Of a stretch of DNA of 64,000 bases, positions 43,279 through 64,000 are shown in pieces (position 1 is the first letter of the stretch; the number at the start of each line of letters is the position of its first letter). Origin of the DNA: Solobacterium sp. Its GTDB lineage: Bacteria > Bacillota_I > Bacilli_A > Erysipelotrichales > Erysipelotrichaceae. The position numbers were made by a program, and so were the translations under genes. The stretch is from positions 1 through 64,000 of the forward strand of contig JAFWNG010000005.1 in assembly GCA_017510405.1 (NCBI GenBank), in the 5' to 3' direction. The notes below the pieces were generated by a model that saw only the letters and a program-made list of their open reading frames with translations, was not told where the DNA came from and made no database searches.

Positions 43279-44784
43279 TCAGTTAAATACCGATTCCGGA
43301 CGGATACGGCACGGTGCACCGACACCGCTTTCGCAGCGTCTGGACAGGGCGTTATATCCCCATCCGCATCCGAAGGCAAGATCGCCGTTCCATGTCTGTG
43401 CGTAATTGGAGAAATTCGATGCACTTCCAAGATAGAAAATTTCAATGTGACAGTGCGGTCCGCTGCTGTTGCCGGAAGAGCCGACTCTGCCGACGATATC
43501 ACCGCCGGATACGATCGTACCGTTCCGAATCGGCGTGCCGGCCAGCATATGCAGATATTTGACCGCGTAGAGACTGCCGTTAACGGTCGTCAGCAGGTAT
43601 ACCTGGTTTCCGCCGCCGGATGAACCGCCGTACTGCGAACCGCACGAACTGCCCAGATACCCGTACGGACAGCCGTCCGCGCGGTTGATCACGATGCCGT
43701 TGCCCACCGCATAGATATTCGTTCCTACCGGTGCGGCAAAGTCATATCCCAGGTGAACGCCGCCGCCCGGATAATACCAGGTCCCGGCACTGCGTCTTGA
43801 ACCCGGCACCGGGAATACCCAGCCGCCGGAAGACGTAATGGCATCCATTCCACCCGCCTTGGCGATCTCTTTCATAAGATTGTTCAGACCGCTGATATTG
43901 GACGCATAGCGGTTGCCCTGTGCCTCCAGCTCAGCCTTCTGTTTCCGGTATTCTTCTTCGATGACCTGCGCCTGGTATTTGAGATTCAGCAGTTCGCCCT
44001 TTTCGGCGACCAGTTCGCCTTTCTGCACTTCCAGTTCATCCTGCTGCGCTTCCAGCTGGCTGCGGACTTCTTCCAGTTCCGCCTTGACCTTTTCCAGTTC
44101 TTTCTTGGCGGCTTCCAGCTCTGCTTTCGCCTTATTCAGAAGCTCGATCAGGGCCCGCAGTTCATCCATGATGTGTTTGTCGTATTCACTGATGGCAAGC
44201 ATTCCTTCCGTCATTCGCAGAAGCTGCGAGAAGGACTCTGCGCCCATCAGGATATCCAGATAACGGTTGACGCGCATGAACGGCTGGGTCGAGACCATGC
44301 GTTCACGCAGTTTCTCGCGGATCGCATCGACTTCCGCCTGCCGGTCTTCGATCTCCTTGACCTTGGCATCGATCTCTTCCTGTTTTGCCTGGATCTCCAG
44401 TTCTTTGCCGTCGATCTTCTGCTGGGTCGCATTGATCTCTGCCTGTTTTTCGGCGATACGGCCTTCAATGACATTGATCTCAGCCTGTTTGGAATCGGCC
44501 TGAGCCTGGTACTCGGAGACCTCTGCCGCATATTTCTGTATATTCGCGGAAATCTCCGAACGTCTTCCTTCGATCTCCTTCAGCTTGGTATTGTTCTGAC
44601 TGATCTGATACTGCACATATGCCTTGCAGGCGGTAACATCGGCTTCACTCAGACTCTGGTAATCCGCGCATTTTCCGGCCCAGTAGCCGGTATCGGTATA
44701 ATCCGGCTCGGCATGAGAATGCATCGTGAAGCAGCCGACTGTCAATAACGCCGCAAGCATTGCCCGGGTCAACCGTTTTTTCAT
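43279..44784 (-). CDS. EnvC-like coiled-coil M23 peptidase of the ftsEX operon
   Basis: 501 aa with a signal peptide (cleavage near HSHA-EP). A long coiled coil spans ~60-320 (KQAEINVIEGRIAEKQAEIN; AKKELEKVKAELEEVRSQLE). The C-terminal LytM/M23 domain has HLGYDF and GPHCHIEIF as Zn ligands, so it should be catalytic. FtsEX activates such hydrolases during division, and the gene overlaps ftsX by four bases. It has a paralogue at 47,396. Confidence 0.92.
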   Translation of the reverse strand: MKKRLTRAMLAALLTVGCFTMHSHAEPDYTDTGYWAGKCADYQSLSEADVTACKAYVQYQISQNNTKLKEIEGRRSEISANIQKYAAEVSEYQAQADSKQAEINVIEGRIAEKQAEINATQQKIDGKELEIQAKQEEIDAKVKEIEDRQAEVDAIREKLRERMVSTQPFMRVNRYLDILMGAESFSQLLRMTEGMLAISEYDKHIMDELRALIELLNKAKAELEAAKKELEKVKAELEEVRSQLEAQQDELEVQKGELVAEKGELLNLKYQAQVIEEEYRKQKAELEAQGNRYASNISGLNNLMKEIAKAGGMDAITSSGGWVFPVPGSRRSAGTWYYPGGGVHLGYDFAAPVGTNIYAVGNGIVINRADGCPYGYLGSSCGSQYGGSSGGGNQVYLLTTVNGSLYAVKYLHMLAGTPIRNGTIVSGGDIVGRVGSSGNSSGPHCHIEIFYLGSASNFSNYAQTWNGDLAFGCGWGYNALSRRCESGVGAPCRIRPESVFN

Positions 44785-47395: not shown

Positions 47396-49033
47396 TCAGT
47401 AAAAGATGGTCTCCGGGCGTACCCGGCACGGTGCTCCCACACCGTTTTCACACAGTCTGCTCAGAGCGTTGTAATACCACCCGCAGCCGAATGCCAGATC
47501 GCCGTTCCAGTTCAGGGCAAAGTTTGAGAAACCGCCGGAATCCCCCAGGTAGAAGACTTCCACATGCGTATGCGGACCGGTGACATTGCCGGTCGCACCG
47601 ACTCTGCCGATGTATTCCCCGGCGCTCACGATCGTTCCTGTCGCGATCGGCGTACCGGCCTGCATATGCAGGTATTTGATCACATACATACTGCCGTTCA
47701 TCTTCGTCAGCAGATATACCTGGTTTCCGCCGCCGCTCGAACCGCCGTATCCCGCGCATGTGCTGCCGAGATAACCGACGGTGCATCCGTCCGCGCTCTT
47801 CAGGACCACGCCGTTTCCGGCTGCCCGGATCGTTGAGCCGACTGCCGCTGCGTAATCCGCACCGAGATGAACGCCGCCGCTGCTGTAATACCACGTGCCG
47901 GCGCTTCTTCTTGCGCCTGCGACCGGTGCGACCCAGCCGCCGCCGGATCCGCTCGGCTTCGGCGTCGGTGTCGGAGTCGGCGCAGGTGTCGGGGTGGGCG
48001 TCGGCACCGGTGTCGGTACGGGCGTCGGGGCCGGTTCATCCGAAGGACTTCCCGGATCCGGGGTCGGCTCCGGTGTAGGAACCGGTGTAGGCACCGGCGT
48101 CGGTACAGGTGTCGGAACAGGTGTGGGCTCCGGTTCCGGAACCGTACCGGTATCCGGAATATCATCCAGTTTGCCGAGTTCCGCCAGCCGCTTCATGATG
48201 CGGCGTACCTGATCGATATCCTGGGCGATCCGGTTTCCTTTGGATTCCAGTTCCGCTGCCTGTTTTTCATATTCGTCCTGAATGACCTGTGCCTGCGCTT
48301 TCAGCAGAACGAGTTTTTTCCGCTGTTCTTCCTGCTGCGCTTTCTCGGCAACCAGTTCTTTCTGCGTTTCTTCCAGATACTTCTGCCGTTCTTCCAGTTC
48401 TTTGCGGTCTTCGTTCAGCTTCCGCATCTGCTCAGCCAGCGCCTGCATATTGAAGCGGTCATACTGCGCCGTGGCATTGTATCCCATCAGAAGCCGCAGA
48501 AGATCGGGGAACGTCTTGATCCCCATCAGCACATCGATCATGGAATTGATCCGCATGGCCGGCTGTGCTGCCGACAGACGCCGGCTCACTTTTTCCCGCA
48601 GCCTGCCGGTCTCTTCTTCCTGGGTCTCGATCTCCGTCTGCTTGGCTTCGATCTCAGCTTCCACATCTTCGATTGCCTGTGCCATGGCGCGGATCTTGGT
48701 ATCCGTCTCTTTCATCGATTCACTGACTTCGCCGATCGACTGCTGGTATTCCTTGATCTTATCCGCATATGCCGTAATGTTCTGCGCGATCTTATCCCGC
48801 TCCGCCTCGATCTCTGCCAGTTCTTTTGACAGGTCGGCGGACTGTTCCGTCATGTAGTTCAGATATGCCTGACACGCATTAAAATCCTCTTCCGAAACAG
48901 AGGAGGCACTCAGACATTTCTCATACCAGTAATCATCATCGCTGAAGTCCGGTTCCGCATAGACGGAAAGCGGCGCCAATATTCCCGCCGCCAGAGATAA
49001 AACACAGATGTATTTGACTGCTTTCTGTAACAT
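47396..49033 (-). CDS. Second coiled-coil M23 peptidase with Pro/Thr-repeat linker
   Basis: 545 aa with a signal peptide ([19 protein letters not shown]). A coiled coil follows (~65-295), then a ~63-residue linker of PTPV/PTPT units, then an LytM/M23 domain with HLGADY and GPHTHVEVF. It is clearly paralogous to the protein encoded at 43,279, including [10 protein letters not shown]-like N-termini and the [11 protein letters not shown] ending. The start is set at 49033: the ATG at 49042 lies inside the TATAAT box and could not be in the mRNA. Confidence 0.92.
47955..48145. repeat. Low-complexity repeat encoding the Pro/Thr linker
   Basis: Tandem GGNGTCGGNAC-type units (plus strand) encode PTPV/PTPT. 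The arrangement is prone to slippage, so linker length may vary between strains. The long Gly/Val open frame on the other strand is its shadow. Confidence 0.8.
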
Positions 49034-49040
49034 AGTACGC

Positions 49041-49068
49041 ATTATAAAACACTTTGCCGGAAATTCAA
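49041..49068 (-). promoter_or_regulatory. Promoter of the second M23 gene, leaderless
   Basis: TTGAAT (49063-49068), 16 bases, TATAAT (49041-49046). The chosen ATG is 7 bases after the -10, too close for a 5' leader. The -35 lies in the last codons of the ybaK-type gene. Confidence 0.65.
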
Positions 49069-52141: not shown

Positions 52142-52170
52142 GAACGGATCTTCTCCGTTCCTTTACTTTT
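52140..52170 (+). terminator. Terminator of the ATP-grasp/esterase operon
   Basis: AGGAACGGA (52140-52148) and TCCGTTCCT (52154-52162) with a 5-base loop, then TTACTTTT. The stem includes the last bases of the stop codon. Confidence 0.8.
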
Positions 52171-52197
52171 CCGTTTTGTCTGTTAAACTATCAGTAC

Positions 52198-52309
52198 GCG
52201 GATATGGCGGAATTGGCAGACGCGACAGATTTAGGAATATACGCGCTTCAAATGGGGATATGGCGGAATTGGCAGACGCATCGGATTTAGGATTATACGC
52301 GCTTCAAAT
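52198..52309 (+). repeat. Two tandem 56-bp copies of the tRNA-Leu 5' half
   Basis: Units 52198-52253 and 52254-52309 each hold the acceptor 5' strand, D arm and anticodon loop (GATTTAGGA) of the following tRNA-Leu, then a shared tail TACGCGCTTCAAAT in place of the 3' half. They differ from each other at a few bases, so they are not a fresh duplication. A TTTACT/TAAACT promoter just upstream would transcribe both with the intact tRNA. Confidence 0.85.
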
Positions 52310-52391
52310 GGGGATATGGCGGAATTGGTAGACGCCTCGGATTTAGGATCCGATGGGGTGACCCGTGCAGGTTCGAGTCCTGTTATCCTCA
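52310..52391 (+). tRNA. tRNA-Leu (anticodon UAG)
   Basis: 82 nt. The acceptor stem is GGGGATA with TATCCTC (one G·U), followed by discriminator A; the D arm contains AATTGGTAGACGC; the anticodon loop is TTTAGGA between TCGGA and TCCGA; a long variable arm TGGGGTGACCCGT fits the class II type; the T arm is GCAGGTTCGAGTCCTGT. CCA is not encoded. Confidence 0.92.
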
Positions 52392-52408
52392 CTGTTTAAG
52401 GGCAAATT

Positions 52409-52452
52409 TGAGATTCTGAACTTCTTAAGCGGAAGATTGGGATCTCATTTTT
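52409..52452 (+). terminator. Terminator after tRNA-Leu
   Basis: TGAGAT (52409-52414) and ATCTCA (52442-52447) close a stem-loop that also holds an inner CTTC/GAAG pair, followed by T5. Confidence 0.65.
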
Positions 52453-52544: not shown

Positions 52545-53531
52545 ATGAAGAAAAGAATCGGCAAAATCAACAAAAACATTGAAGAACTGAACAGCTTGGA
52601 AAAAATGCCATCTGAGCTTCTTGATCTGTTTCTGCAGGAGAAGGAAGCCTTCAATGCTTCAACAGAAACAATCAAACAGTATCGCTATCATTGCGTGCAA
52701 TTCATCCATTCCATCGAAAATGCGGACAGACTTCCCGGATACAAAGTTCTTACTTTAGAAAGCTATAAGAACTACATTATCGAATTGAAAAAACGGGATA
52801 TCAAAGATGTTTCCATTGCTTGTATCGCACGCTCCCTTCGAGCCTGGTTATATTGGTTAATGGAAAACAATTATATTAATCCTTTCCACGTCAAGATTCC
52901 AAAGTATCAGAAAGTAGTTGCGGAAACATATACGGATGAAGAACTGGCCATTCTGCTGGAAAAACCAGGTCGTAATTGCAGTGAAGTCGAATATGAAACA
53001 TGGGTATTCATCAATGTCGCAATAGCTACCGGATTAAGGCTGTCATCTATCCTCAATATAAAGGTCCAGGATATTCACTTCAGTGAAAACACTATCGTGG
53101 TAAACAAAACAAAAAACAGAGCAGCTTTAAGCCTTGTCGCAAATGATGAGCTGCTTGCAATCCTGAAAAGATACGTCAAACTGTTTGATCTGTATCCGGA
53201 GGATTATCTTTTCTGTACCGGAGAAAAAGGCAAATTAGCCAACCGAACAATGGAAGACTTTGTAAAACGCTACAACGCAAAACGCGGTGTGCAGAAAAAG
53301 AAAATCGTCCACGCATTTCGCCATACGTTTGCCAGGAATCATTATCTTCAGAATCACGACATGTACAGGCTGAAAAATCTGATGGGGCATACACTTATTT
53401 CTACGACTGAGCATTATCTTGGCACCCTCGGATTGAATACGTCAGATAAAATCGAATACAACCCACAGGCTCAATTTATCAAAAAACCGAAACAAACACG
53501 GAACAGAAGACAATCCATCCACAAGAAATGA
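52545..53531 (+). CDS. Tyrosine recombinase/integrase
   Basis: 328 aa. The N-terminal SAM-like core-binding domain (~20-115) precedes a catalytic domain with Arg in ATGLRLSSI, HAFRHTFARN (His and Arg), and GHTLISTTEHYLG supplying His and the nucleophile Tyr, so it looks active. AGGAGG precedes the start. It sits directly downstream of tRNA-Leu, a classical target. No excisionase or relaxase accompanies it. It is homologous to the recombinase at 57,378. Confidence 0.93.
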   Translation: MKKRIGKINKNIEELNSLEKMPSELLDLFLQEKEAFNASTETIKQYRYHCVQFIHSIENADRLPGYKVLTLESYKNYIIELKKRDIKDVSIACIARSLRAWLYWLMENNYINPFHVKIPKYQKVVAETYTDEELAILLEKPGRNCSEVEYETWVFINVAIATGLRLSSILNIKVQDIHFSENTIVVNKTKNRAALSLVANDELLAILKRYVKLFDLYPEDYLFCTGEKGKLANRTMEDFVKRYNAKRGVQKKKIVHAFRHTFARNHYLQNHDMYRLKNLMGHTLISTTEHYLGTLGLNTSDKIEYNPQAQFIKKPKQTRNRRQSIHKK

Positions 53532-53755: not shown

Positions 53756-54535
53756 TTATTCAACAATGCCATTCACATCTTCGATGTAGCCGATATATTC
53801 CACATGTGGTGTCAGGCTTTCATAGATCTTTGCCATATGTTCCGGTGTCTTTTCCAGTTCAAACTGATGTGAATAGATCTTTTTACATACAAATGTCAGT
53901 TCGGCTTCCTCAAAGCCCACACCATGAGTGAGTGCCTTCGGTGTTAAGGTTGTCTGCTCAATCTTGTTTCCGTCACGTCCGGATGTTCTGCCAAGCACGA
54001 TGACATCTTTTTTATGGCTTTCCGGGAAGAAGGAAACTGTGAAGTAATCATTCTCTTCGAGGAATTTGTAAGTATGTCTGTCAGGGCTGACATAGATTGT
54101 TAATGCAGAACCCGGGTGTCCCCAGATATTGCCCATCATACCCCATCCGATGGTCATGGAATTGAAATTGTCCATGTCACCGGCAGTAACTACTGCAAGC
54201 TGTTTGTTGAATTTTGCGAATACATCGATCTTTGCTTCCACAAGGTTTTCCATATTGATTTCTGCCATTTCTTTTTCCTCCTTATCTTTCATGTTGGATA
54301 TGGCTATTGTGATATCCTTTTTCATAAACTGCTCAGGGATATGCCTGAACGGAGCACTATCATTACTGATTCCGGAAAGAATATCCAGAAGCGCCGGCAT
54401 CTGAGAAGAAATGATATCCATTTCAATTTCCTGATCATTGATCCGTCTGATCAGCCCTTCATCAAATTCCCAGTCAGCGAGTGTTTCCGTCAGTTCTTTC
54501 TGCTTTTCTGCAGACATTGTAATTCTGACAATCAT
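53756..54535 (-). CDS. Flavin reductase-family protein with N-terminal extension
   Basis: 259 aa from an AGGAG-preceded ATG. Residues ~95-259 form an FMN-binding split barrel (KQLAVVTAGDMDNFNSMTIG, MGNIWGHPGSALTIYVSPDR). The first ~89 residues are an acidic extension I do not recognise. An internal ATG at 54268 has a perfect AAGGAGG before it and matches the ordinary family start, so a 170-aa short form may be made too, or the gene is a recent fusion. Nine bases downstream of the aldo/keto reductase. Confidence 0.8.
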   Translation of the reverse strand: MIVRITMSAEKQKELTETLADWEFDEGLIRRINDQEIEMDIISSQMPALLDILSGISNDSAPFRHIPEQFMKKDITIAISNMKDKEEKEMAEINMENLVEAKIDVFAKFNKQLAVVTAGDMDNFNSMTIGWGMMGNIWGHPGSALTIYVSPDRHTYKFLEENDYFTVSFFPESHKKDVIVLGRTSGRDGNKIEQTTLTPKALTHGVGFEEAELTFVCKKIYSHQFELEKTPEHMAKIYESLTPHVEYIGYIEDVNGIVE

Positions 54536-54544
54536 CGATTTCTC

Positions 54545-55531
54545 CTAATTTCTTGTTCCTTTGAATACAGGACCGGTTGCCACCTGATCAAGCATTTTGT
54601 CGATTTCCTGCACTTCTTCTCTGCTTAATGCAATTTTACACGAATCGAAGTTTTCCTGCAGGTATTTCGGGTTGGTGCTGCCAGGAATTGGAACGATATC
54701 AATATCCTTGTTTTCCATCCATGCCAGGGAAATCTGACTCATCGTTGCGTTTTTCTTTTCAGCAAGATCGGATACATAGGCAAGCAGTTTTTCATTTGCT
54801 TTATAGCCTTCCTCTGTAAACTGCGGCATCATGGCGCGGAAGTCACCTTTTTCTGTGTAATTTCCTGACGCATTATATTTGCCTGTCAGGAATCCATTCG
54901 CCATCGGGGAGAAGGCGACGAATGTGACACCAAGTTCTCTGCATGTGTCAAAGATGTACTCCTCTTCTCTTGCCAGCATCGAATATCTCAGCTGGACAGC
55001 GGAAACTGGGAATACCGCATGGGCTCTTCTTAATGTATCCGCATCACACTGGGAAATGCCCCATGCCCTGATCTTGCCTGCCTCAAACAGTTCCTTCATT
55101 GTTTCAGCTACTGTTTCGATCGGCGTATTCGGATCAACACTGTGCAGGTAGTACAGATCAACATAGTCTGTCTGCAGTCTTTCCAGGCTTTCCTCCAGGG
55201 AAGATTTGATCGTTTCCGGACTCGCGTCCAGTGTGCGGACGCCATCGATCATGGAAATGCCGCATTTTGTCGCGATGACCACCTTGTCACGGATATCTTT
55301 CAGCGCCATGCCGACAACAGTTTCATTATAAAGTGTGTTCCCGTTTTCGTCTTCGCCTGTATAGCGCTGGGCTGTATCGAAGAATGTATAGCCCATATCA
55401 TATGCCGAGCGGATCAGTTTTGCAGCTTCTGTTTCATCCATTGGTGCACCATAAGCGTGTGTGAATCCCATGCAGCCAAGACCTACCGGGCTGATTTCAA
55501 TATCCGTGTTTCCAAGATATACTTTTTTCAT
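54545..55531 (-). CDS. Aldo/keto reductase
   Basis: 328 aa from MKKVYLGNTDIEISPVGLGC after GAGGAAAG. The tetrad is visible as Asp in FFDTAQRY with Tyr, Lys in VVIATKCG and His in YYLHSVDP. C-terminal PIPGSTNPKYLQEN binds NADP. The substrate is unknown. It is divergent from a LysR gene and upstream of the flavin reductase, a common redox-stress arrangement. Confidence 0.93.
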   Translation of the reverse strand: MKKVYLGNTDIEISPVGLGCMGFTHAYGAPMDETEAAKLIRSAYDMGYTFFDTAQRYTGEDENGNTLYNETVVGMALKDIRDKVVIATKCGISMIDGVRTLDASPETIKSSLEESLERLQTDYVDLYYLHSVDPNTPIETVAETMKELFEAGKIRAWGISQCDADTLRRAHAVFPVSAVQLRYSMLAREEEYIFDTCRELGVTFVAFSPMANGFLTGKYNASGNYTEKGDFRAMMPQFTEEGYKANEKLLAYVSDLAEKKNATMSQISLAWMENKDIDIVPIPGSTNPKYLQENFDSCKIALSREEVQEIDKMLDQVATGPVFKGTRN

Positions 55532-55602
55532 TTTTACTTTCCTCTTTTCTCTGATTACAGAATACTTGTTAAGAAAAGAAAAATGAAATATCATTCAGAT
55601 AT

Positions 55603-55615
55603 AAGTTTATAACTT
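55603..55615. promoter_or_regulatory. Candidate LysR-box dyad AAGTT-TAT-AACTT
   Basis: A perfect 5-bp dyad in the 107-base gap between the divergent aldo/keto reductase and LysR genes, 24 bases before the LysR start. The position suits an autoregulated LysR site. Confidence 0.45.
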
Positions 55616-55638
55616 TTATGCATAAAGTCGGAGAAAGT

Positions 55639-56520
55639 ATGGATTATAATCAATTGCTTTATTTTGTGACAGTTGCCGAAGAAAAAACGATATTGAGAGC
55701 TTCAGAAAAACTGCTGATTTCCCAGCCAGCCATCACCAGATCAATTCAGAATCTGGAAAATGAACTTGGATATCCTCTTTTTCGAAGGGAAAAGAAAAGA
55801 CTGATTCTCAATGAAGAAGGGGAAATCGCTCTTCAGGAAGCAAAGAAAGTCCTGCGCTCATTTGAGCATATGCAGAAAGTGCTGGATGCCCATAAGAGGT
55901 CAAAGGAAAAGATATCTTTTGCCGGGCTGACACCGGCACCTTTGTGGGGTATCAGTTCAATTGCGAAAAAGCGCATGCCTGAAAACACTTTTTCTTCAGA
56001 AGTCATTAATGATACCGGGAAACTGATCGAAGGTCTGCGTGACTATGCATATCAGTTTGTGATTCTTGATTTTCCATATAACAAAGAAGGTTTTGTCTCA
56101 CAGCCATTGTTTAAAGAACAGCTGTATATTGCCCTGGAAAAGAACCATCCGCTGGCTGAAAAAGAAAGTGTTTCAGTGAAAGATCTTGAAAATACTGTCT
56201 TTCTTTTGCTGAAGAATACCGGATACTGGGAGGAACTTTGTCTCGAAGCAATGCCAAAAGCAGAATTTCTCTTTCAGGAAGAGGCATCTGCCTATGCCAC
56301 GATCCTGAAGGCTTCCAATCTTGTCACATTCCGGTCCAACCTGACAATACCAAGGTTTGAAAAAACAGAGGACCGGGAATACATACCGATTTCCGATCCA
56401 GAATTCACATTAACATATTATGCCGTTTACGCTGATCCCCCATCCCGAAGCGTCACAGATCTCCTTGATCATGTCAGTGACATTGCGTGGGATCAGTACC
56501 GTGACAGAGCTTCTGACTGA
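55639..56520 (+). CDS. LysR-family transcriptional regulator
   Basis: 293 aa from MDYNQLLYFVTVAEEKTILR, with GGAGAAAGT upstream; an ATG 7 codons earlier lacks a site. The winged HTH (SEKLLISQPAITRSIQNLEN, LGYPLFRREKKRLILNEEG) is followed by a substrate-binding domain of two lobes. It probably controls the divergent aldo/keto reductase and flavin reductase genes. It ends one base before the convergent phosphatase gene. Confidence 0.92.
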   Translation: MDYNQLLYFVTVAEEKTILRASEKLLISQPAITRSIQNLENELGYPLFRREKKRLILNEEGEIALQEAKKVLRSFEHMQKVLDAHKRSKEKISFAGLTPAPLWGISSIAKKRMPENTFSSEVINDTGKLIEGLRDYAYQFVILDFPYNKEGFVSQPLFKEQLYIALEKNHPLAEKESVSVKDLENTVFLLLKNTGYWEELCLEAMPKAEFLFQEEASAYATILKASNLVTFRSNLTIPRFEKTEDREYIPISDPEFTLTYYAVYADPPSRSVTDLLDHVSDIAWDQYRDRASD

Positions 56521-57111
56521 TCAGATGCCCAGATCCTTGAAATTATGGTTGATCACTTCGACGAGGTCAAATGTTCCCTCGAAATAAAGAAACTTCATAA
56601 TCGCACAGTTGCCCAGTCTTCGGCCGTCATGTTTCAGTTCGCTAGTAGCCTGTGTTCCCCTGATAACAAATGCACATGATACGCCATGGCTGACCACAAG
56701 AACATTCTCGTGGTCTTCTTTTTCCATGATTTCATTCAGTGCCTTCAGCATCCTTTTCTGCAGATCAGAATCGCTTTCCCCACCATATCTGACAAATGCA
56801 TCACCGAAAGGAACAGGCGGATTCAGAAAGGAGTCCTTTCCTTCAAAGGAACCGAAGTTTAACTCCTTCAGATCTTTTCTTCTTGTATACGGGATCCTGT
56901 TTTCAGTGATGATTTCCAGAGTGTCACAGGCACGCTCACTGGTAGAACTGTATGCATGATCAAAAATAATTCCCTCTTTTTTGAAATAATCTCTGGCAGC
57001 TTCTGCCTGTTTGATGCCTTTTTCAGTCAGTGGTGCATCCCACGATCCCTGATTCTTGTGCTCCACATTAAGCCATGTTTCACCATGTCTAACAAGATAC
57101 AGTGTTTTCAT
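56521..57111 (-). CDS. Histidine phosphatase-family protein
   Basis: 196 aa. It begins MKTLYLVRHGETWLNVEHKN, with the catalytic His in RHGE; the second His is in VLVVSHGVSCAFV, and Arg and Glu in the core are present. This matches phosphoglycerate mutase-like phosphatases; the substrate is unknown. It is convergent with LysR with no gap. Confidence 0.9.
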   Translation of the reverse strand: MKTLYLVRHGETWLNVEHKNQGSWDAPLTEKGIKQAEAARDYFKKEGIIFDHAYSSTSERACDTLEIITENRIPYTRRKDLKELNFGSFEGKDSFLNPPVPFGDAFVRYGGESDSDLQKRMLKALNEIMEKEDHENVLVVSHGVSCAFVIRGTQATSELKHDGRRLGNCAIMKFLYFEGTFDLVEVINHNFKDLGI

Positions 57112-57377: not shown

Positions 57378-58328
57378 TCATTGATCTAAGTTGTTTAAAT
57401 TCATTCGATTTCTTCTTTTTGACCGATATTCATCCATAGAATCTGATACATGTTTTCGCTGTGGGTTATACTCGATGCTTTCCGTCAGAGCACAGCCAAG
57501 TGATTTAAGATAATGCTCTGTCATGGACAGATTACAGTGCCCCAGAATTTCCTTTAGCTTGTAGACATCATGCGTAGTCAGATAATAGTTTTTTGCGAAT
57601 GTATGCCGGAAAGCATGAACTTTTCGTGCTTTCACTATTTGCCTTTTCGTCAGATATTGTTCGATATAATCCTGAATCGTCCTGGATGCATAGGGTGTTC
57701 CGGCTCCACTGCAGAACATATAATCATTCGGTTTCAGATTGAGCCGAGCAATAAAATCAAGCAAAATTGCACATAATTCAGGATTGATTGGAAGCGGAAT
57801 AGGTAATCTGTTTTTCGTTGTATTGACTCGCAGCAGACATTCATTATATGAAAAATCCCTTACCTTCAAAGCCTTCAGCGATCCTAAACGCATGCCTGTC
57901 GCAATCAAGACATTGACCATTACCCAGGTAATATATTCAACTTCTGTGCAGCCAGATTGCGGATGTTTCAATAAAACTACCAGTTCTTCATCCGAATACG
58001 TCTCTCGAAGCGTTTCCTGATACTTTGGTATATGCATATGATATTGTCCGATCCAGCCCTTTTCCATCATCCAGTTGAACCATGCTTTTATTGATCGCAT
58101 ATAGCTTGCGGCTGTGATATCCTTGATCTGTTTTTCATCTAACAGAAAACGTATAAAATCGTAATAATTGGATTCGGTGCACCCTTCCGATATATCCTTT
58201 TTTCCACATTCAGCACAGAATTGAATAAATTTATAACCATGCCCTCTGTATGTGGAGATGGTTGTTTCTGCTGCATTAATTGCTCTTTTTTCGCGCAGAA
58301 ACAATTCCAGACTTCTATTCAGTTCCAT
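57378..58328 (-). CDS. Tyrosine recombinase/integrase of the mobilizable element
   Basis: 316 aa from MELNRSLELFLREKRAINAA after AAAGGAGG; the upstream extension overlaps the relaxase gene. Catalytic residues are Arg in ATGMRLGSL, HAFRHTFAKN, and GHCNLSMTEHYLK with the Tyr. It should excise and integrate the element. It is similar along its whole length to the recombinase at 52,545 (shared KYQ, YSDEELVVLL-like and ATGMRLGSL-like blocks). Confidence 0.93.
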   Translation of the reverse strand: MELNRSLELFLREKRAINAAETTISTYRGHGYKFIQFCAECGKKDISEGCTESNYYDFIRFLLDEKQIKDITAASYMRSIKAWFNWMMEKGWIGQYHMHIPKYQETLRETYSDEELVVLLKHPQSGCTEVEYITWVMVNVLIATGMRLGSLKALKVRDFSYNECLLRVNTTKNRLPIPLPINPELCAILLDFIARLNLKPNDYMFCSGAGTPYASRTIQDYIEQYLTKRQIVKARKVHAFRHTFAKNYYLTTHDVYKLKEILGHCNLSMTEHYLKSLGCALTESIEYNPQRKHVSDSMDEYRSKRRNRMNLNNLDQ

Positions 58329-58347
58329 GTTCCACCTCCTTTCATTT

Positions 58348-59664
58348 TCAGCGGTCCTGTCCGATTGAAGGACGCTCCCTACGCATTTTATGTGCCATGT
58401 TTGTATAATTTTTCTTCCATCGGTCTGCTTCCTCCCGGTTCTCAAATCCTCTTCGAATCGGCACCTCATCTTTACCATCCAGGAAAACAACCATAAACAG
58501 ATCTTCATCGCGACTGTCGGCAACAACCTTCAGTAACTTGGGATCATATCTGTTTCCCTCTTTGACAAGTCTGACGATTCCTGAAGAAGTTCGTGCATCA
58601 GGAAATTCTGGTATCTGGCCTTTCATATCATCGAAACCTAATAAATCCATGAGCCATGTGCCCGCTTTTTCTGCAAGACTCATGAATTTCCTCTTCCAAA
58701 TATCAGCCTGTTCTTTCCAATGCTCAAGAGCAGCAGTGAGCTGTTCGATCAGACTGTCTTTTGTTTGGATTGCTGTCCGAAGCTCAGTAACTTCTTTTCG
58801 GATGGTTTCATATGTTTCTACATCCGGCGCATCTGTCAGTTGCATCAGTTTCTTCTCATACTCTTTTCTGATCTCATATGCTTTAGAAGAATGCTCTGTG
58901 TACTCTATCCTGGCTGCCTCTGTCAGTTCCTTCATTTTTTCCAGGTTCTGTTTTTCTTCTGCCAGGTCACCAATCTGATTTGTGATCTGCTCAAGTTCGT
59001 TTCTGGCAGTTTGCACTTTTTCTGAAATCTTTTCTGCTTTATATTCCTGTTCTGTCAGATGTTTTTTCTTTGAACCTTCTTTGATCGGTTCCAGACATTC
59101 CAGCTGTTGACCTGTATTCTTTGAATTCCATTGACTGATCCATTTCATCGTATAGTCCTGACTGTCCGTTTGGAGTGATTTCAAGAATGTCCTGTTCAAT
59201 ATATTCTTAGCCTGCAGTCTACCCTCTTTCATAGGCATCCACACATATGTAGCGTGTGGTGTCGTTTCGTCAAGATGAATACAGACGCTCAGCATACTTC
59301 CCTCATCAACCCCAGCATTCTGCTGAAGATATTCTGCATACCATCTTGCCTTTTCCCAAAAATATTTATTGCAGGCATCTGCACTCCAGCTGACAGGAAC
59401 TGACTCCACCGTACTGCAAAGAACAACTGCATCTTTCCGGACACTTTTACCAGTTGAGGCAACTGTTTTCTCTTTTGCCTGTCGGACATAGCGGTACCAG
59501 TCAGAACCTCCTGGAGCCAATTCAATGTAGCTGTTTCTGTCCGACATTTCCGGATGAACATCGTTTCGGTATAGTTCGGCATTTGAATATTCCCTGAACT
59601 GTTCTTTATGGATTCCGCCGATGTCACTCTGCTTATATTTTTCATTGTGAAAGTTATATTGCAT
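58348..59664 (-). CDS. MOBV-family relaxase (Mob/Pre)
   Basis: 438 aa from MQYNFHNEKYKQSDIGGIHK after AAGGAG. Motif III is HLDETTPHATYV (130-141), with His130, Glu133 and His137. The usual third His of PHxH is Thr139, an oddity for metal binding. A long coiled coil (~215-345) and a C-terminal domain follow. It nicks oriT, which lies 140 bases upstream, to start transfer. Confidence 0.9.
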   Translation of the reverse strand: MQYNFHNEKYKQSDIGGIHKEQFREYSNAELYRNDVHPEMSDRNSYIELAPGGSDWYRYVRQAKEKTVASTGKSVRKDAVVLCSTVESVPVSWSADACNKYFWEKARWYAEYLQQNAGVDEGSMLSVCIHLDETTPHATYVWMPMKEGRLQAKNILNRTFLKSLQTDSQDYTMKWISQWNSKNTGQQLECLEPIKEGSKKKHLTEQEYKAEKISEKVQTARNELEQITNQIGDLAEEKQNLEKMKELTEAARIEYTEHSSKAYEIRKEYEKKLMQLTDAPDVETYETIRKEVTELRTAIQTKDSLIEQLTAALEHWKEQADIWKRKFMSLAEKAGTWLMDLLGFDDMKGQIPEFPDARTSSGIVRLVKEGNRYDPKLLKVVADSRDEDLFMVVFLDGKDEVPIRRGFENREEADRWKKNYTNMAHKMRRERPSIGQDR

Positions 59665-59929
59665 GCACACTCCTTTTCGGCAGACGGGCTGTCGCCCTCG
59701 AAGCTGCCGTCTTTCTAAAATCCCCCCTGCCTGGCGGCAAACACAATCCTTTCCCTTTCGCTTTATGAAATATCATCCTGATCATAAGCAAAGCGACGGC
59801 GGGAAAGTATAGCCCACTATACTTTGTAAACAAAGCAGTGGGCTCTCCGAGGGCTCCTGCAGAGAGCTGCTGCCTCCGGCGGCACCTGTGCGGTGAGCAC
59901 TTCTGTCTGGCCACAGAAGCAAGGCCACC
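59665..59929. other. Gap containing the oriT
   Basis: GC-richer than the flanking genes and rich in short inverted repeats. Besides the oriT, AGCCCACT (59811-59818) and AGTGGGCT (59837-59844) form a wider dyad overlapping it. Short open frames across this gap lack ribosome sites. Confidence 0.5.
59804..59825 (-). other. oriT of MOBV (pMV158) type
   Basis: AAAGTATAG and CTATACTTT are perfect 9-bp arms around four bases. On the minus strand, in relaxase orientation, the site reads AAAGTATAGTGGG then CTATACTTT. This differs from the pMV158 nick region (AAAGTATAGTGTG then TTATACTTT) at only two positions, as I recall that sequence. The expected nick falls after the GTGGG. Confidence 0.85.
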
Positions 59930-60367: not shown

Positions 60368-60562
60368 CTATTTCTTTGATTCTTTTATAGCCTCAGCAAC
60401 CTGTTTTTTAACATCATCCCAGGAAATACGTACCAGTTCTTTCTTTGAATTTTTTACTTCAAGATCCACACGGCCATTTTCAATGATGACATCGCAAAAG
60501 CGGGATGGGATCTGCTTTTTTTCCTTAAAATTTCGTATTGGATGTCTCATCCTTTCACTCAC
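60368..60562 (-). CDS. Hypothetical 64-aa protein
   Basis: A basic N-terminus (MRHPIRNFKEKKQIPSRFCD) precedes a short beta-rich segment (VIIENGRVDLEVKNSKKELV) and a charged helix. It overlaps the end of the DUF6076-like gene by 8 bases, so the two are co-translated. No family recognised. Confidence 0.65.
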   Translation of the reverse strand: MSERMRHPIRNFKEKKQIPSRFCDVIIENGRVDLEVKNSKKELVRISWDDVKKQVAEAIKESKK

Positions 60563-61616
60563 CTTTCTTGATCTTCATCAGCCATTTCAAATAGTCTTCT
60601 TCTGTTATAGAACCGTATTTAATCATTCCCAGCATGTTCTTGTTTTCCCGCTGCAGATATGTAAGTCGCTTCTGATATTCAGGATCATCCGGATGTCTTC
60701 TGAGTGCCATCTTGAGTGAAAGATACGTATTTCTATACGCACGTGTCAACACATCATTTTTTTCTTTGCGGCTTCTGGTATTCTTCGCTCCGACATCGCG
60801 ACATGTTATTACTGAGCTGCGAGTTAATGGATACTGGCAATACTTTGCATCCGATCTTCCAGCAGGCACAAAATAGTTACCGCAATTCTGACATTTAACC
60901 AGTATAGTGTGATCTTTAATACAATTGGATATATCAAAAATAAACAGTGAAACAAGTGAATTGCAGGAGTATGTGGGCATTAGTTGGCCATCGATTCTGA
61001 CAATCCTGTAATCAATTCTTTGCATTTCGATCAACTCGTCAAAAAAAGCAGAAATAACAGGACTGTCTTCAATATCTCTACCAGAAGCCCTTATTTCACA
61101 AAATTCAACAAACGTTTTTTTCAAGAATTCAAAAGAGTGAACAAAATACAGATATGCGCTCAGCATAAGCTGCAGCATTGTTTCGCCACCAGGTGATGTA
61201 TAACCAGTTCCGTCAAATACACTCTTTCGGAATTCTTCAGTACCGTAACTATTGAACTGATTAACAAAATCCTCTTTAACCTCATAAGTAACTGCATCCA
61301 TCCAAATGGTGATAACATTTGAAAATTCACAAAAAAGGATTTGCTGAATAATCGGAGAAGGATAAAAAATTTTAGAGAATCCCTTAAAATCCTGCATTGC
61401 TGCAAATGCGCTTTTTATAGAAAACTTATCATCCAGAAAATCACACTGCATGACAATTTCTTTAATTAAACTCGGTTCCATTCTGAATAATTCACATAGG
61501 ATTTCTCCGGTTCTGTATTCGCGAAGCTCATCTTTTAAAGGCAAATAATATGTATTTTTGTTATATATCAATGTAACTCCAGAACCCGAACTGATTTCCG
61601 ATATAGTTGACACCAT
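60555..61616 (-). CDS. DUF6076-like protein with C-terminal zinc-ribbon-like domain
   Basis: 353 aa. The N-terminal ~240 residues are helical and unassigned. Near the C-terminus, VKCQNCGNYFVPAGRSDAKY with a later Cys resembles the CGNR/DUF6076 zinc finger, followed by a basic helical tail. Such genes recur in Clostridia mobile elements; their role is unknown. The start at 61616 follows GGGGG; an ATG at 61640 lies 7 bases after a TATAAT and may instead be a leaderless start. Confidence 0.7.
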   Translation of the reverse strand: MVSTISEISSGSGVTLIYNKNTYYLPLKDELREYRTGEILCELFRMEPSLIKEIVMQCDFLDDKFSIKSAFAAMQDFKGFSKIFYPSPIIQQILFCEFSNVITIWMDAVTYEVKEDFVNQFNSYGTEEFRKSVFDGTGYTSPGGETMLQLMLSAYLYFVHSFEFLKKTFVEFCEIRASGRDIEDSPVISAFFDELIEMQRIDYRIVRIDGQLMPTYSCNSLVSLFIFDISNCIKDHTILVKCQNCGNYFVPAGRSDAKYCQYPLTRSSVITCRDVGAKNTRSRKEKNDVLTRAYRNTYLSLKMALRRHPDDPEYQKRLTYLQRENKNMLGMIKYGSITEEDYLKWLMKIKKGE

Positions 61617-61699
61617 CTTAGCCCCCAATTTTGTTATCATTCGTTAGATTATATATCTATTGTTAACACCATAGTAATAGAGATGTAAATCAAAGTCAA

Positions 61700-61792: not shown

Positions 61793-62246
61793 TTATTCTG
61801 TGTAGCTGATTGGGCTTATTGGATTTTCCATCCTCACTCCATCCGGTGTTTTATAATCCAAGAAAGTTACTTCTCTAGTTACTCTGTTAACACTAACTTT
61901 TGCAAAAGCCGACCATAAATCATCATTTTCAAAGCCGAGAAAATACATCATGTCCACATCATCGCCTTCTGAATATGCTTCACATGATTTCTCGATATGA
62001 TTCTTGAAATAATCCATGCCAAAAAGCTGTGCTATAGCATAACATGCATTATAAACCGGTGGACTTTCCGTACTGAATGTGAAGCCACCCTAAATTATGC
62101 GCATTATAGATACGGTTAATACCGTATTGAGGAGAACAAATCGTGCACGCCTCGGCATCACGAACAATACCATTCGGGTCCCACTCACAGTCTGGGACTT
62201 CTGAAATAACACCCGGTGTTTTTTTACATTTCACCGGTATCATCAA
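61793..62246 (-). pseudogene. Frameshifted gene, unknown family
   Basis: Two minus-strand frames join without gap across a GGG run at 62088-62090: upstream RIYNAHNLG continues as GFTFSTESPPVYNACYAIAQ if one G is removed, then runs MDYFKNHIEKSCEAYSEGDD to the stop at 61793. The ATG of the downstream frame alone lacks a ribosome site. The intact product would be about 145-150 aa. The family is not recognised. A true mutation and a sequencing error cannot be told apart here. Confidence 0.55.
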
Positions 62247-62796
62247 TGATTTCTTTGATCACTCTTGCCGGAACACCTGCGACGACACAGTTGTCTGGCA
62301 CATCTTTTGTGACCACTGCACCGGCAGCAACTACCACATTGTTTCCAATCGTGACACCGGGGAGAACTATGGCACCTGCACCCATCCAGAAATCATTTCC
62401 GATCGTGACTGGCTTTGCAATGCCGATATGTTTTCTTCTTTCTTTCGGAGACAGCGGATGGCCTACTGTAATGATCTTGGATCCCGGTCCCAGCATGGCA
62501 TAATCACCGATATGAACAGGTGCGATGTCAAGAATCGTGACGCCATAGTTGGCAATGAAATCATCGCCTACATGAATATTCAATCCATTGTCACAGTTGA
62601 ATACCGGATCAACACAGGGATCGCTCCCGGCTGAGCCGAACAGTTCCTGGATCACCGGAACCTTGGCTGCTTCGTCATTGGGATCCATCGCATTCAGTTT
62701 TCTTGTAAGAGTGATTGCGCGCTTTCTTCTGGCATTGACTTCACTGTCCCAGAAATCATATGGCAGTCCTGCGTCGAGTTTTTCAATTTCTTTCAT
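62224..62796 (-). CDS. Sugar O-acetyltransferase, maltose/galactoside type
   Basis: 190 aa left-handed beta-helix acyltransferase. It begins [20 protein letters not shown], then runs of hexapeptide repeats ([40 protein letters not shown]). Catalytic His is in [13 protein letters not shown]. It acetylates sugars with acetyl-CoA. It lies 6 bases downstream of an MFS gene. Confidence 0.93.
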
Positions 62797-62802
62797 ATTC
62801 TT

Positions 62803-64000
62803 TTATCCCTCCTGACCGGAAACCATAATTCTGCTTCCTATATATGCTTTGTTTTTACTGTTTTCTTTTTTCAGCAGCATGGCCGTTTCAATTGCTACAG
62901 CCACAAGCATGATGAGAATGCCGGCAAAGGCAATCATTCTGACGCCGAACTGATCGATCAGGATACCGCTGTAGGAAAGTGCAATGATCGCGGAGAAGTT
63001 GTTATATGCAGCATCAGCGACATTATGGGCAATGTTCCTGACGGAAGGATCGATATGCTTTTCAACGATCTCACGTTGTGTCGGCAGCATCACCGAGAAT
63101 GAGATATTCCAGAAGATGGAACCGAGAATGATCATGAACGGAGAGACCGCGAAGTAGATCAGTAACATGTCCGCCAATAATGCGGAAGACATGATCAGCA
63201 GTCTGACTTTGACAGGGATCCTGGTGAATCTGCCTGAGACAAAGATCAGGACCGCCTGCAGCGTGACGCCGATAAAACTGTCTAAGCCAAGCATTGAGAC
63301 ATCGCCGCCGACATTCTGAATGAAGACTGTCTTCATGTTGTTGACAGGTGAAACAGCCAGACCGCCAAGGAACAGAAGAACGATCAGGATCATATACAAA
63401 GGACTTCTGAGAAGAAGCTTTGCATTCCCCTTTTCTGTCTTTTTATCTGTTTCTCCAAACGGGAGTTCTTTCAGGAAGAATGCCATGATGAGAGTCAGAA
63501 CACCGGTGATGATCTGCAGCGGCTGGATCATACTGTAGCCGAATGTATTGATGATCATACCGGCCGCAAGAGCTGTCAATGAATAACCAAGCGACCCGAT
63601 TGCCCTTGCCTTGCCATAGAGCGTTCCGTCTTTGTGAAAGTTTCTCAGCATCCAGGCATCCAGATTGGAGCCGAGTGAGGAAAGCAAGAATCCCATGACA
63701 GGATAGAGCGCAATGGCAAGATTCACATTGAGGGGTGTGATCACCGTGATGATCCCGGCAATCAGGATGACTGCCGCAAAAGAAGCGATGAATACCTTTC
63801 TGTTTGTCTTCAGCTTATCGCAGACACCTCCCCAAAAAAGCGCTCCTGCAAAACAGGTGATCATATATACCGCCAGCATTGTGCTCAGTTTCGAAGCACT
63901 TAAACCGCATGCCAGGAAATAGGATGTAATGAATCCCGTAAAGGATGCGCACCATGCGTAGAACAGTCCGTCCATCATTCCATATCTGAGAAACCCTTCT
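62803..64000 (-). CDS. MFS transporter, 5' end outside the window
   Basis: At least 397 residues; the frame stays open to the window edge and reads EGFLRYGMMDGLFYAWCASF there, so the true start is beyond 64,000. About 12 helices; GVCDKLKTNRKVFIASFAAV is the helix 2-3 loop, and NLDAWMLRNFHKDGTLYGKA resembles the LacY/nucleoside-H+ symporter-like branch. It is coupled to the sugar acetyltransferase, so the substrate may be a sugar. Confidence 0.85.
   Translation of the reverse strand, partial: EGFLRYGMMDGLFYAWCASFTGFITSYFLACGLSASKLSTMLAVYMITCFAGALFWGGVCDKLKTNRKVFIASFAAVILIAGIITVITPLNVNLAIALYPVMGFLLSSLGSNLDAWMLRNFHKDGTLYGKARAIGSLGYSLTALAAGMIINTFGYSMIQPLQIITGVLTLIMAFFLKELPFGETDKKTEKGNAKLLLRSPLYMILIVLLFLGGLAVSPVNNMKTVFIQNVGGDVSMLGLDSFIGVTLQAVLIFVSGRFTRIPVKVRLLIMSSALLADMLLIYFAVSPFMIILGSIFWNISFSVMLPTQREIVEKHIDPSVRNIAHNVADAAYNNFSAIIALSYSGILIDQFGVRMIAFAGILIMLVAVAIETAMLLKKENSKNKAYIGSRIMVSGQEG

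Follow-up and report, generated by a model that had tools for sequence, protein, structure and literature searches.

Among the landing sites of mobile DNA, tRNA genes are some of the commonest, and the arriving element is usually held to repair the break with a matching fragment. In the window analysed here, a stretch of 64,000 nucleotides from a Solobacterium sp. contig, an intact tRNA-Leu gene stands behind two tandem 5′ halves of a tRNA. How did the gene come to be preceded by these halves, and is it the host's own? We think it very likely that the array represents the stacked left junctions of two nested integrative mobilizable elements of one family, here called E1 and E2, both directed to the same tRNA-Leu(UAG) target.

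Layout of the array at the tRNA-Leu locus

An earlier note on this DNA had described two 56-bp repeats leading into an intact tRNA-Leu gene beside a tyrosine recombinase, and this description holds: the units (52200-52255 and 52256-52311) are 93% identical at a spacing of 56 bp, the third copy in register is an intact tRNA-Leu (52310-52392, ARAGORN), and the recombinase gene (52545-53531, PF00589) adjoins the array. The junction pattern TTTAGGANTATACGCGCTTCAAAT occurs twice in the window, against 0.00 expected from shuffles. Both displaced halves start at the mature tRNA 5′ end (52198 and 52254) and have the anticodon loop TTTAGGA as their last seven bases (52230-52236 and 52286-52292), after which comes a 17-nt tail of non-tRNA sequence, WTATACGCGCTTCAAAT (52237-52253 and 52293-52309). 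The 5′ strand of the acceptor stem reads GCGGATA in the unit 1 half and GGGGATA in unit 2 and the complete tRNA; the unit 1 half thus comes from a different tRNA gene. In the reading we prefer, the features of the locus are:

52162-52189, + strand: putative host tRNA-Leu promoter, with a -35-like TTTACT (52162-52167) and an extended -10, TG-T-TAAACT (52181-52189)
52198-52236, + strand: 5′ half, now displaced, of the host's original tRNA-Leu(UAG), a host-type half at the E1 left junction (core 52230-52236)
52237-52253, + strand: E1 left end (tail), 17 nt, kept after 10 host halves and 2 element right ends
52254-52292, + strand: 5′ half of the E1 replacement tRNA-Leu, split by E2 (core 52286-52292)
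52293-52309, + strand: E2 left end (tail), 17 nt
52310-52392, + strand: complete replacement tRNA-Leu(UAG) carried by E2 (ARAGORN)
52410-52452, + strand: predicted terminator of the replacement tRNA (hairpin with T run), kept 3′ of the tRNA in relatives

The complete E2 tRNA is the only UAG tRNA found by whole-genome pattern searches of the assembly, which is 96.6% complete.

The displaced 3′ half and the extent of E2

A search of the genome itself found a second match to the locus 3.3 kb past the window (C9:67300-67411), consisting of a tRNA 3′ half and a terminator. The displaced 3′ half (C9:67302) is preceded by ...GATCTTACGCACTTAAGAGA and then the core TTTAGGA. The distance from core to core is 15,016 bp; E2 runs from 52293 to 67308 of the contig, with its right end and core at C9:67169-67308 (L025 16169-16308), and the core shared at E2 is 10 nt, the general core being the 7-nt TTTAGGA. 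When these 15,016 bp are excised virtually, the joined flanks form a tRNA-Leu(UAG) that matches the complete tRNA of nine other loci without a difference. The half in unit 2 and the one at C9:67302 thus belong to a single tRNA, split by E2, and it follows that the complete tRNA at 52310-52392 is carried by E2. This exact restoration can be read directly from the DNA, as can the order of nesting, by which E1 is the older insertion whose tRNA E2 later used as its target.

The earlier note had suggested that the units could be displaced 5′ halves from successive integrations beside an integrase, with a crossover in the anticodon loop, left behind when the elements were lost. The displacement and the crossover site are correct, but the loss is not: E2 is still present, complete between unit 2 and its 3′ half, E1 persists beyond it as a decayed remnant, and the units are attL junctions. 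Moreover, clean loss would restore the tRNA instead of leaving a half, and we regard a history of lost elements as very unlikely. Beyond that earlier reading, we find that the third copy is an element-borne replacement tRNA and not the host's, and that the displaced 3′ half is located a short way past the end of the window. The int1 gene (the recombinase above) is intact in E2 and broken in E1; the right end of E1 and the original host 3′ half were not found in the genome's own assembly. We note that the broken E1 remnant resembling int1/int2 (L026 3489-3760; C9:67489-67760) directly follows the displaced 3′ half, and that downstream of it come an ion transporter gene and then other chromosomal-looking genes.

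Slippage or unequal crossing over, duplicating the 5′ half of one tRNA-Leu gene in tandem, would produce units that are equal in length and 93% identical, although the lengths are equal because each unit is a half joined to a fixed tail. Such duplication is extremely improbable given that unit 1 is from a different tRNA, that the 3′ half matching unit 2 lies 15 kb away, and that an identical tail follows different host halves in other species as well as element right ends. We therefore return to nested insertion, for which the relatives of this genome provide further evidence.

Junctions in related genomes

We compared 70 congeneric genomes, Solobacterium-like gut MAGs of which most or all of the informative ones are drafts; the named records are MAGs of Solobacterium and Erysipelotrichaceae, several of them from ruminant gut, and one contig (L050) is binned as Lachnospiraceae. 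The tail with a complete tRNA-Leu follows host 5′ halves in the genome under study (G000, twice), in G013, G019, G031, G038, G043, G048 and G055 and on L050, and it follows an element right end in the tandem arrays of G019 and G042. Both junction types, and a common tail on different host halves, are apparent from these loci: ten junctions of a 5′ half with the tail, 15 of the right end with a 3′ half and two of the right end with the tail share the core, every one of them at TTTAGGA (TTTAGAA once). The right end is conserved in 13 of the 70 genomes, and of 17 aligned right ends 15 lead into a tRNA 3′ half and 2 into the tail; these last, tandem junctions have the sequence expected of attP.

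Of 315 genomes of the order, 9 had the pattern of half, tail and tRNA, and all 9 belong to this genus; among 392 genomes sampled from the phylum, the genome under study alone had it. The pattern misses longer tails, for example that of G069, which was found by another route. No viral contig contained the exact tail. A tail motif found in another genus (G123) lacks an adjacent tRNA and was taken as chance. G058 and G067 were considered as empty sites, but element-like sequence follows their intact tRNAs, and we use them as sites without a displaced 5′ half only. We do not claim transfer between families on the basis of L050, as its neighbouring gene is 41-49% identical to this genus, about as distant as the genus's own copies are from one another, and neither taxonomic assignment is thereby supported.

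The earlier note had held that the same repeats in relatives without any trace of elements would point to simple slippage. Instead, element tRNA directly follows every half and tail, and in three relatives with half and tail the element right end is also joined to the matching host 3′ half. In G013, G019 and G048 (in G048 the two element ends are on different contigs) the host halves flanking the element pair at 12 of 12 Watson-Crick positions in the acceptor and anticodon stems, and when joined they are called tRNA-Leu(tag) by ARAGORN, whereas most host 5′ halves make just 6-9 of the 12 pairs with the 3′ half of the element. These pairings show integration into the host tRNA, and pairing at 6-9 positions means that repair by the element's 3′ half alone would have yielded a broken tRNA. 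The host-type half of unit 1 is found intact with its own 3′ half in G058, and the restored G013 tRNA is the same as this intact G058 tRNA except for two bases after the discriminator.

It might be supposed that the locus is an ordinary island, which restores the tRNA by its 3′ half and has nothing to do with the repeats upstream; this strategy is indeed used by relatives with the same right end (G004, the first element of G042, and G051). However, tail-type loci (G013, G019 and G048) keep both host halves, on opposite sides and mutually matching, and because both survive and match, the complete tRNA between them is neither. We give an ordinary island almost no credence, and consider the complete tRNA to be a replacement.

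Repair, replacement and the origin of the replacement tRNA

The tail-less elements of G004, G042 (first element) and G051 have an intact tRNA on the left and a 3′ half on the right, the classical arrangement. G021, G040, G058, G067 and G068, at which there are contig breaks or missing ends, probably have it too. In G004 the displaced host 3′ half reads TATCCCC, as against TATCCTC in the tRNA now in use, and so the classical element brought its own 3′ half.

The tail is similar to a tRNA-Leu leader in G028: 12 of 17 positions are identical, all five differences are transitions, and the likeness falls in alignments of 85-93% identity spanning the same tRNA. Its first bases, WTATACGYGYTT, recur before very different complete tRNAs in G055 and G069 (tRNA identity 66-85%), where divergent replacement tRNAs stand in the same layout; these first bases may thus be the element's own left end. 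It is possible that the replacement tRNA arose when excision across two nearby cores captured a leader and 5′ half ahead of the 3′ half of a classical element.

We note two loci with other replacement tRNAs. In G069 (L134 2786-2960) a host tRNA-Leu 5′ half is followed by a tail of 40 nt, whose first 12 bases are the same, and by a third replacement tRNA-Leu(UAG), whose loop, TTTAGGC, would not re-offer the TTTAGGA core. In G055 (L036 23-8071) a tail-type insertion has a second type of replacement tRNA; after it comes a repeat surface protein of 2682 aa, and this stretch yielded no integrase homologue.

Gene content of E2

The genes of E2 are as follows:

52545-53531, + strand: int1, tyrosine recombinase of 328 aa (PF00589, E 1e-22; Xer-like NCBIfam matches below cut-off)
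53756-57111: cargo of flavin reductase, aldo/keto reductase, LysR regulator (these three by Pfam) and a phosphoglycerate-mutase-like protein (read from the translation)
57378-58526, - strand: int2, second tyrosine recombinase, 45% identical to int1
58348-59670, - strand: MobV-type relaxase (Mob_Pre PF01076, E 6e-17; MobV NCBIfam below cut-off)
60555-61640, - strand: DUF6076 protein (PF19553)
62224-64000, - strand: right-hand cargo of acetyltransferase and MFS transporter, continuing past the window

Past the window the right-hand cargo goes on with a transporter, a ferredoxin-type aldo/keto reductase and an AraC regulator, and ends at C9:67308. With int1, int2 and a Mob_Pre/MobV relaxase, E2 has both the integrase and the relaxase of an integrative and mobilizable element. 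Among the E2 proteins scanned, in which small ORFs are partly covered, there were no conjugation genes and, the relaxase standing instead, no phage genes.

Relatives of int1 that are 77-78% identical adjoin the tail-type tRNA in G031 and L050; outside the genus the best homologue reaches only 31% identity. One of these homologues outside the genus, near a tRNA-Leu(UAG) on L095, was rejected as the same system, being located upstream of the tRNA and without halves. L050 has a compact core of tRNA, int1, convergent int2 and relaxase, and the cargo at 53756-57111 is absent between its two integrase genes. The homologous int1 and int2, convergent in L050 (1517-3568), are possibly a working pair.

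The right 5.2 kb of E2 are 94% identical to an integrase-less element in G019, and E2 therefore resembles an integrase element fused to a passenger element. Integrase-less cargo elements are seen at L028 4516-9900 (G019), L029 13959-18242 (G042) and L078 13027-17102 (G068). They are 90-94% identical to the right part of E2, carry acetyltransferase, MFS, transporter and AraC regulator genes, and sit between a junction of the right end with the tail and one of the right end with a 3′ half, as might passengers needing an integrase in trans; in G068 it is the cargo and right end that are seen.

Elsewhere in the window, 43279-44784 and 47396-49042 encode two similar secreted coiled-coil proteins that look, from their translations only, like ordinary cell-wall hydrolases; the gene of the first directly adjoins FtsX- and FtsE-like genes, also recognized from translations only.

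Promoter, transcription and precursor folding

The host promoter block, with its extended -10 (TGnTARRAT-like), keeps a constant spacing to the tRNA 5′ end at loci with a displaced half (G013, G031, G038, G048 and G055) and without one (G058 and G067). The element provides just 17 nt ahead of the replacement tRNA, and a consensus promoter scan gave a single weak match, no better than chance, within unit 2. The simplest reading would be that the host promoter drives transcription, and it is plausible that the displaced halves are co-transcribed with the tRNA. The right end has a conserved TGTTATAAT, located some 155 bp ahead of the core, that might have promoter activity in the circle or where elements stand in tandem. 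We also note that the right-end block begins with TGTTATAATCTTACGTG in most copies (e.g. C9:67169-67308), a possible outward promoter or integrase arm site, and that ATCTTACG motifs are repeated at both element ends.

Folding was predicted at equilibrium, from which co-transcriptional folding may differ. At single-insertion loci a divergent host half leaves the predicted tRNA fold undisturbed in 6 of 7 cases, with acceptor pairing of 0.93-0.95, the value for G055 being 0.76. For the G000 precursor a drop in acceptor pairing is predicted, from 0.98 to 0.45 with both units and to 0.02 with only unit 2, whose sequence almost matches that of the tRNA's 5′ half. The stability of the whole precursor is unremarkable (z -0.99).

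The displaced halves might be more than insertion scars and have been kept as functional RNAs, as tRNA-half regulators or decoys. They do lie behind a tRNA promoter, and competition in folding is predicted for an identical half. However, the half in G031 is mutated in the D-arm and anticodon stem, and the sequences of the halves track the identity of the host with no common RNA among them, so that kept functional RNAs seem to us highly improbable.

Discussion

We propose that the array formed by two rounds of the same reaction. In each, int1, perhaps with int2, would recombine the 7-nt TTTAGGA of the anticodon loop between a circular element and the tRNA gene, cutting the host tRNA so that its promoter and 5′ half stay on the left and its 3′ half comes to lie far to the right. 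The host tRNA would never be rebuilt, and the cell would need the replacement: a complete tRNA-Leu(UAG) that the element brings along, starting 17 nt in from the left end and equipped with a terminator of its own but no clear promoter. Given this lack of a clear promoter, the old host promoter would drive half, tail and tRNA as one transcript, from which the mature tRNA would be processed. As the replacement tRNA has the same loop, it would present a fresh target, and E2 inserted into the tRNA of E1, adding the second unit of half and tail. For a mobile element of this kind the benefit would be independence from the sequence of the host tRNA.

A broader proposal, which we put forward tentatively and rate at somewhat less than an even chance, is that the family switched, with at least three tRNAs, from repair by a 3′ half to replacement of the whole gene. 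The promoterless tRNA would be made only behind the right host tRNA promoter, rendering integration self-checking and freeing the element from the host tRNA's sequence; the host would depend on the element for its sole UAG leucine tRNA, each copy would be a new target, and nesting would be limited by folding interference between identical 5′ halves.

The host's only tRNA with a UAG anticodon appears to belong to a mobile element. Because island finders expect one intact tRNA and one fragment, they would misplace the left ends of such elements. Since elements with the same right end here resort either to repair or to full replacement, the evolutionary transition from one to the other can be examined directly; this step was left open by the 2024 phage study (PMC10865867).

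Comparison with known systems

Classical tRNA-gene islands of the anticodon-loop subsite (Islander, PMC4383910) have in common with E2 a tyrosine integrase, a crossover in the anticodon loop, a displaced 3′ fragment at the far end and the formation of tandem arrays. In the classical island, however, the fragment regenerates the target, whereas the elements described here displace both halves of the host tRNA and supply another, complete one; regeneration of the split target by a carried fragment is a feature of the tail-less relatives and not of E2. Displaced 5′ fragments are left by 159 of 3919 classical islands, as the displaced end of a rebuilt tRNA (PMC4383910).

The closest precedent is the tRNA-dependent lysogeny of actinobacteriophages, including mycobacteriophages, described by Guerrero-Bustamante and Hatfull in 2024 (PMC10865867). 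There too a tyrosine integrase acts at an attB within a tRNA gene, integration leaves the host tRNA unrepaired, the element carries an entire tRNA of matching isotype and related elements repair instead, and the shared core is about 10 bp as compared with 7-10 bp here. E2 thus has the features of tRNA-dependent integration, namely an integrase beside the tRNA site, a short core, no rebuilding and a carried tRNA of the same isotype, while the temperate phage carrier on which the strict term depends is not seen among the E2 proteins scanned. As cited in PMC10865867, prophage Lj965 of Lactobacillus johnsonii also leaves the tRNA at the junction unrebuilt and encodes the cognate tRNA; its host, too, is a Firmicute, but it is a prophage, and the likeness drawn from that citation extends to these two points.

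No description of a whole tRNA at attL behind a host promoter was found in the open-access literature. Whereas tRNA-dependent lysogeny concerns temperate phages of Actinobacteria, and the tested case has a tRNA with its own promoter away from attL (PMC10865867), the tRNA described here lies 17 nt inside attL with no visible promoter, in a Firmicute, and, unlike in tRNA-dependent lysogeny, has itself been the site of nested re-insertion. What is new, then, is a mobilizable non-phage element as the carrier, a tRNA at attL without a visible promoter, nested re-insertion, and three divergent replacement tRNAs.
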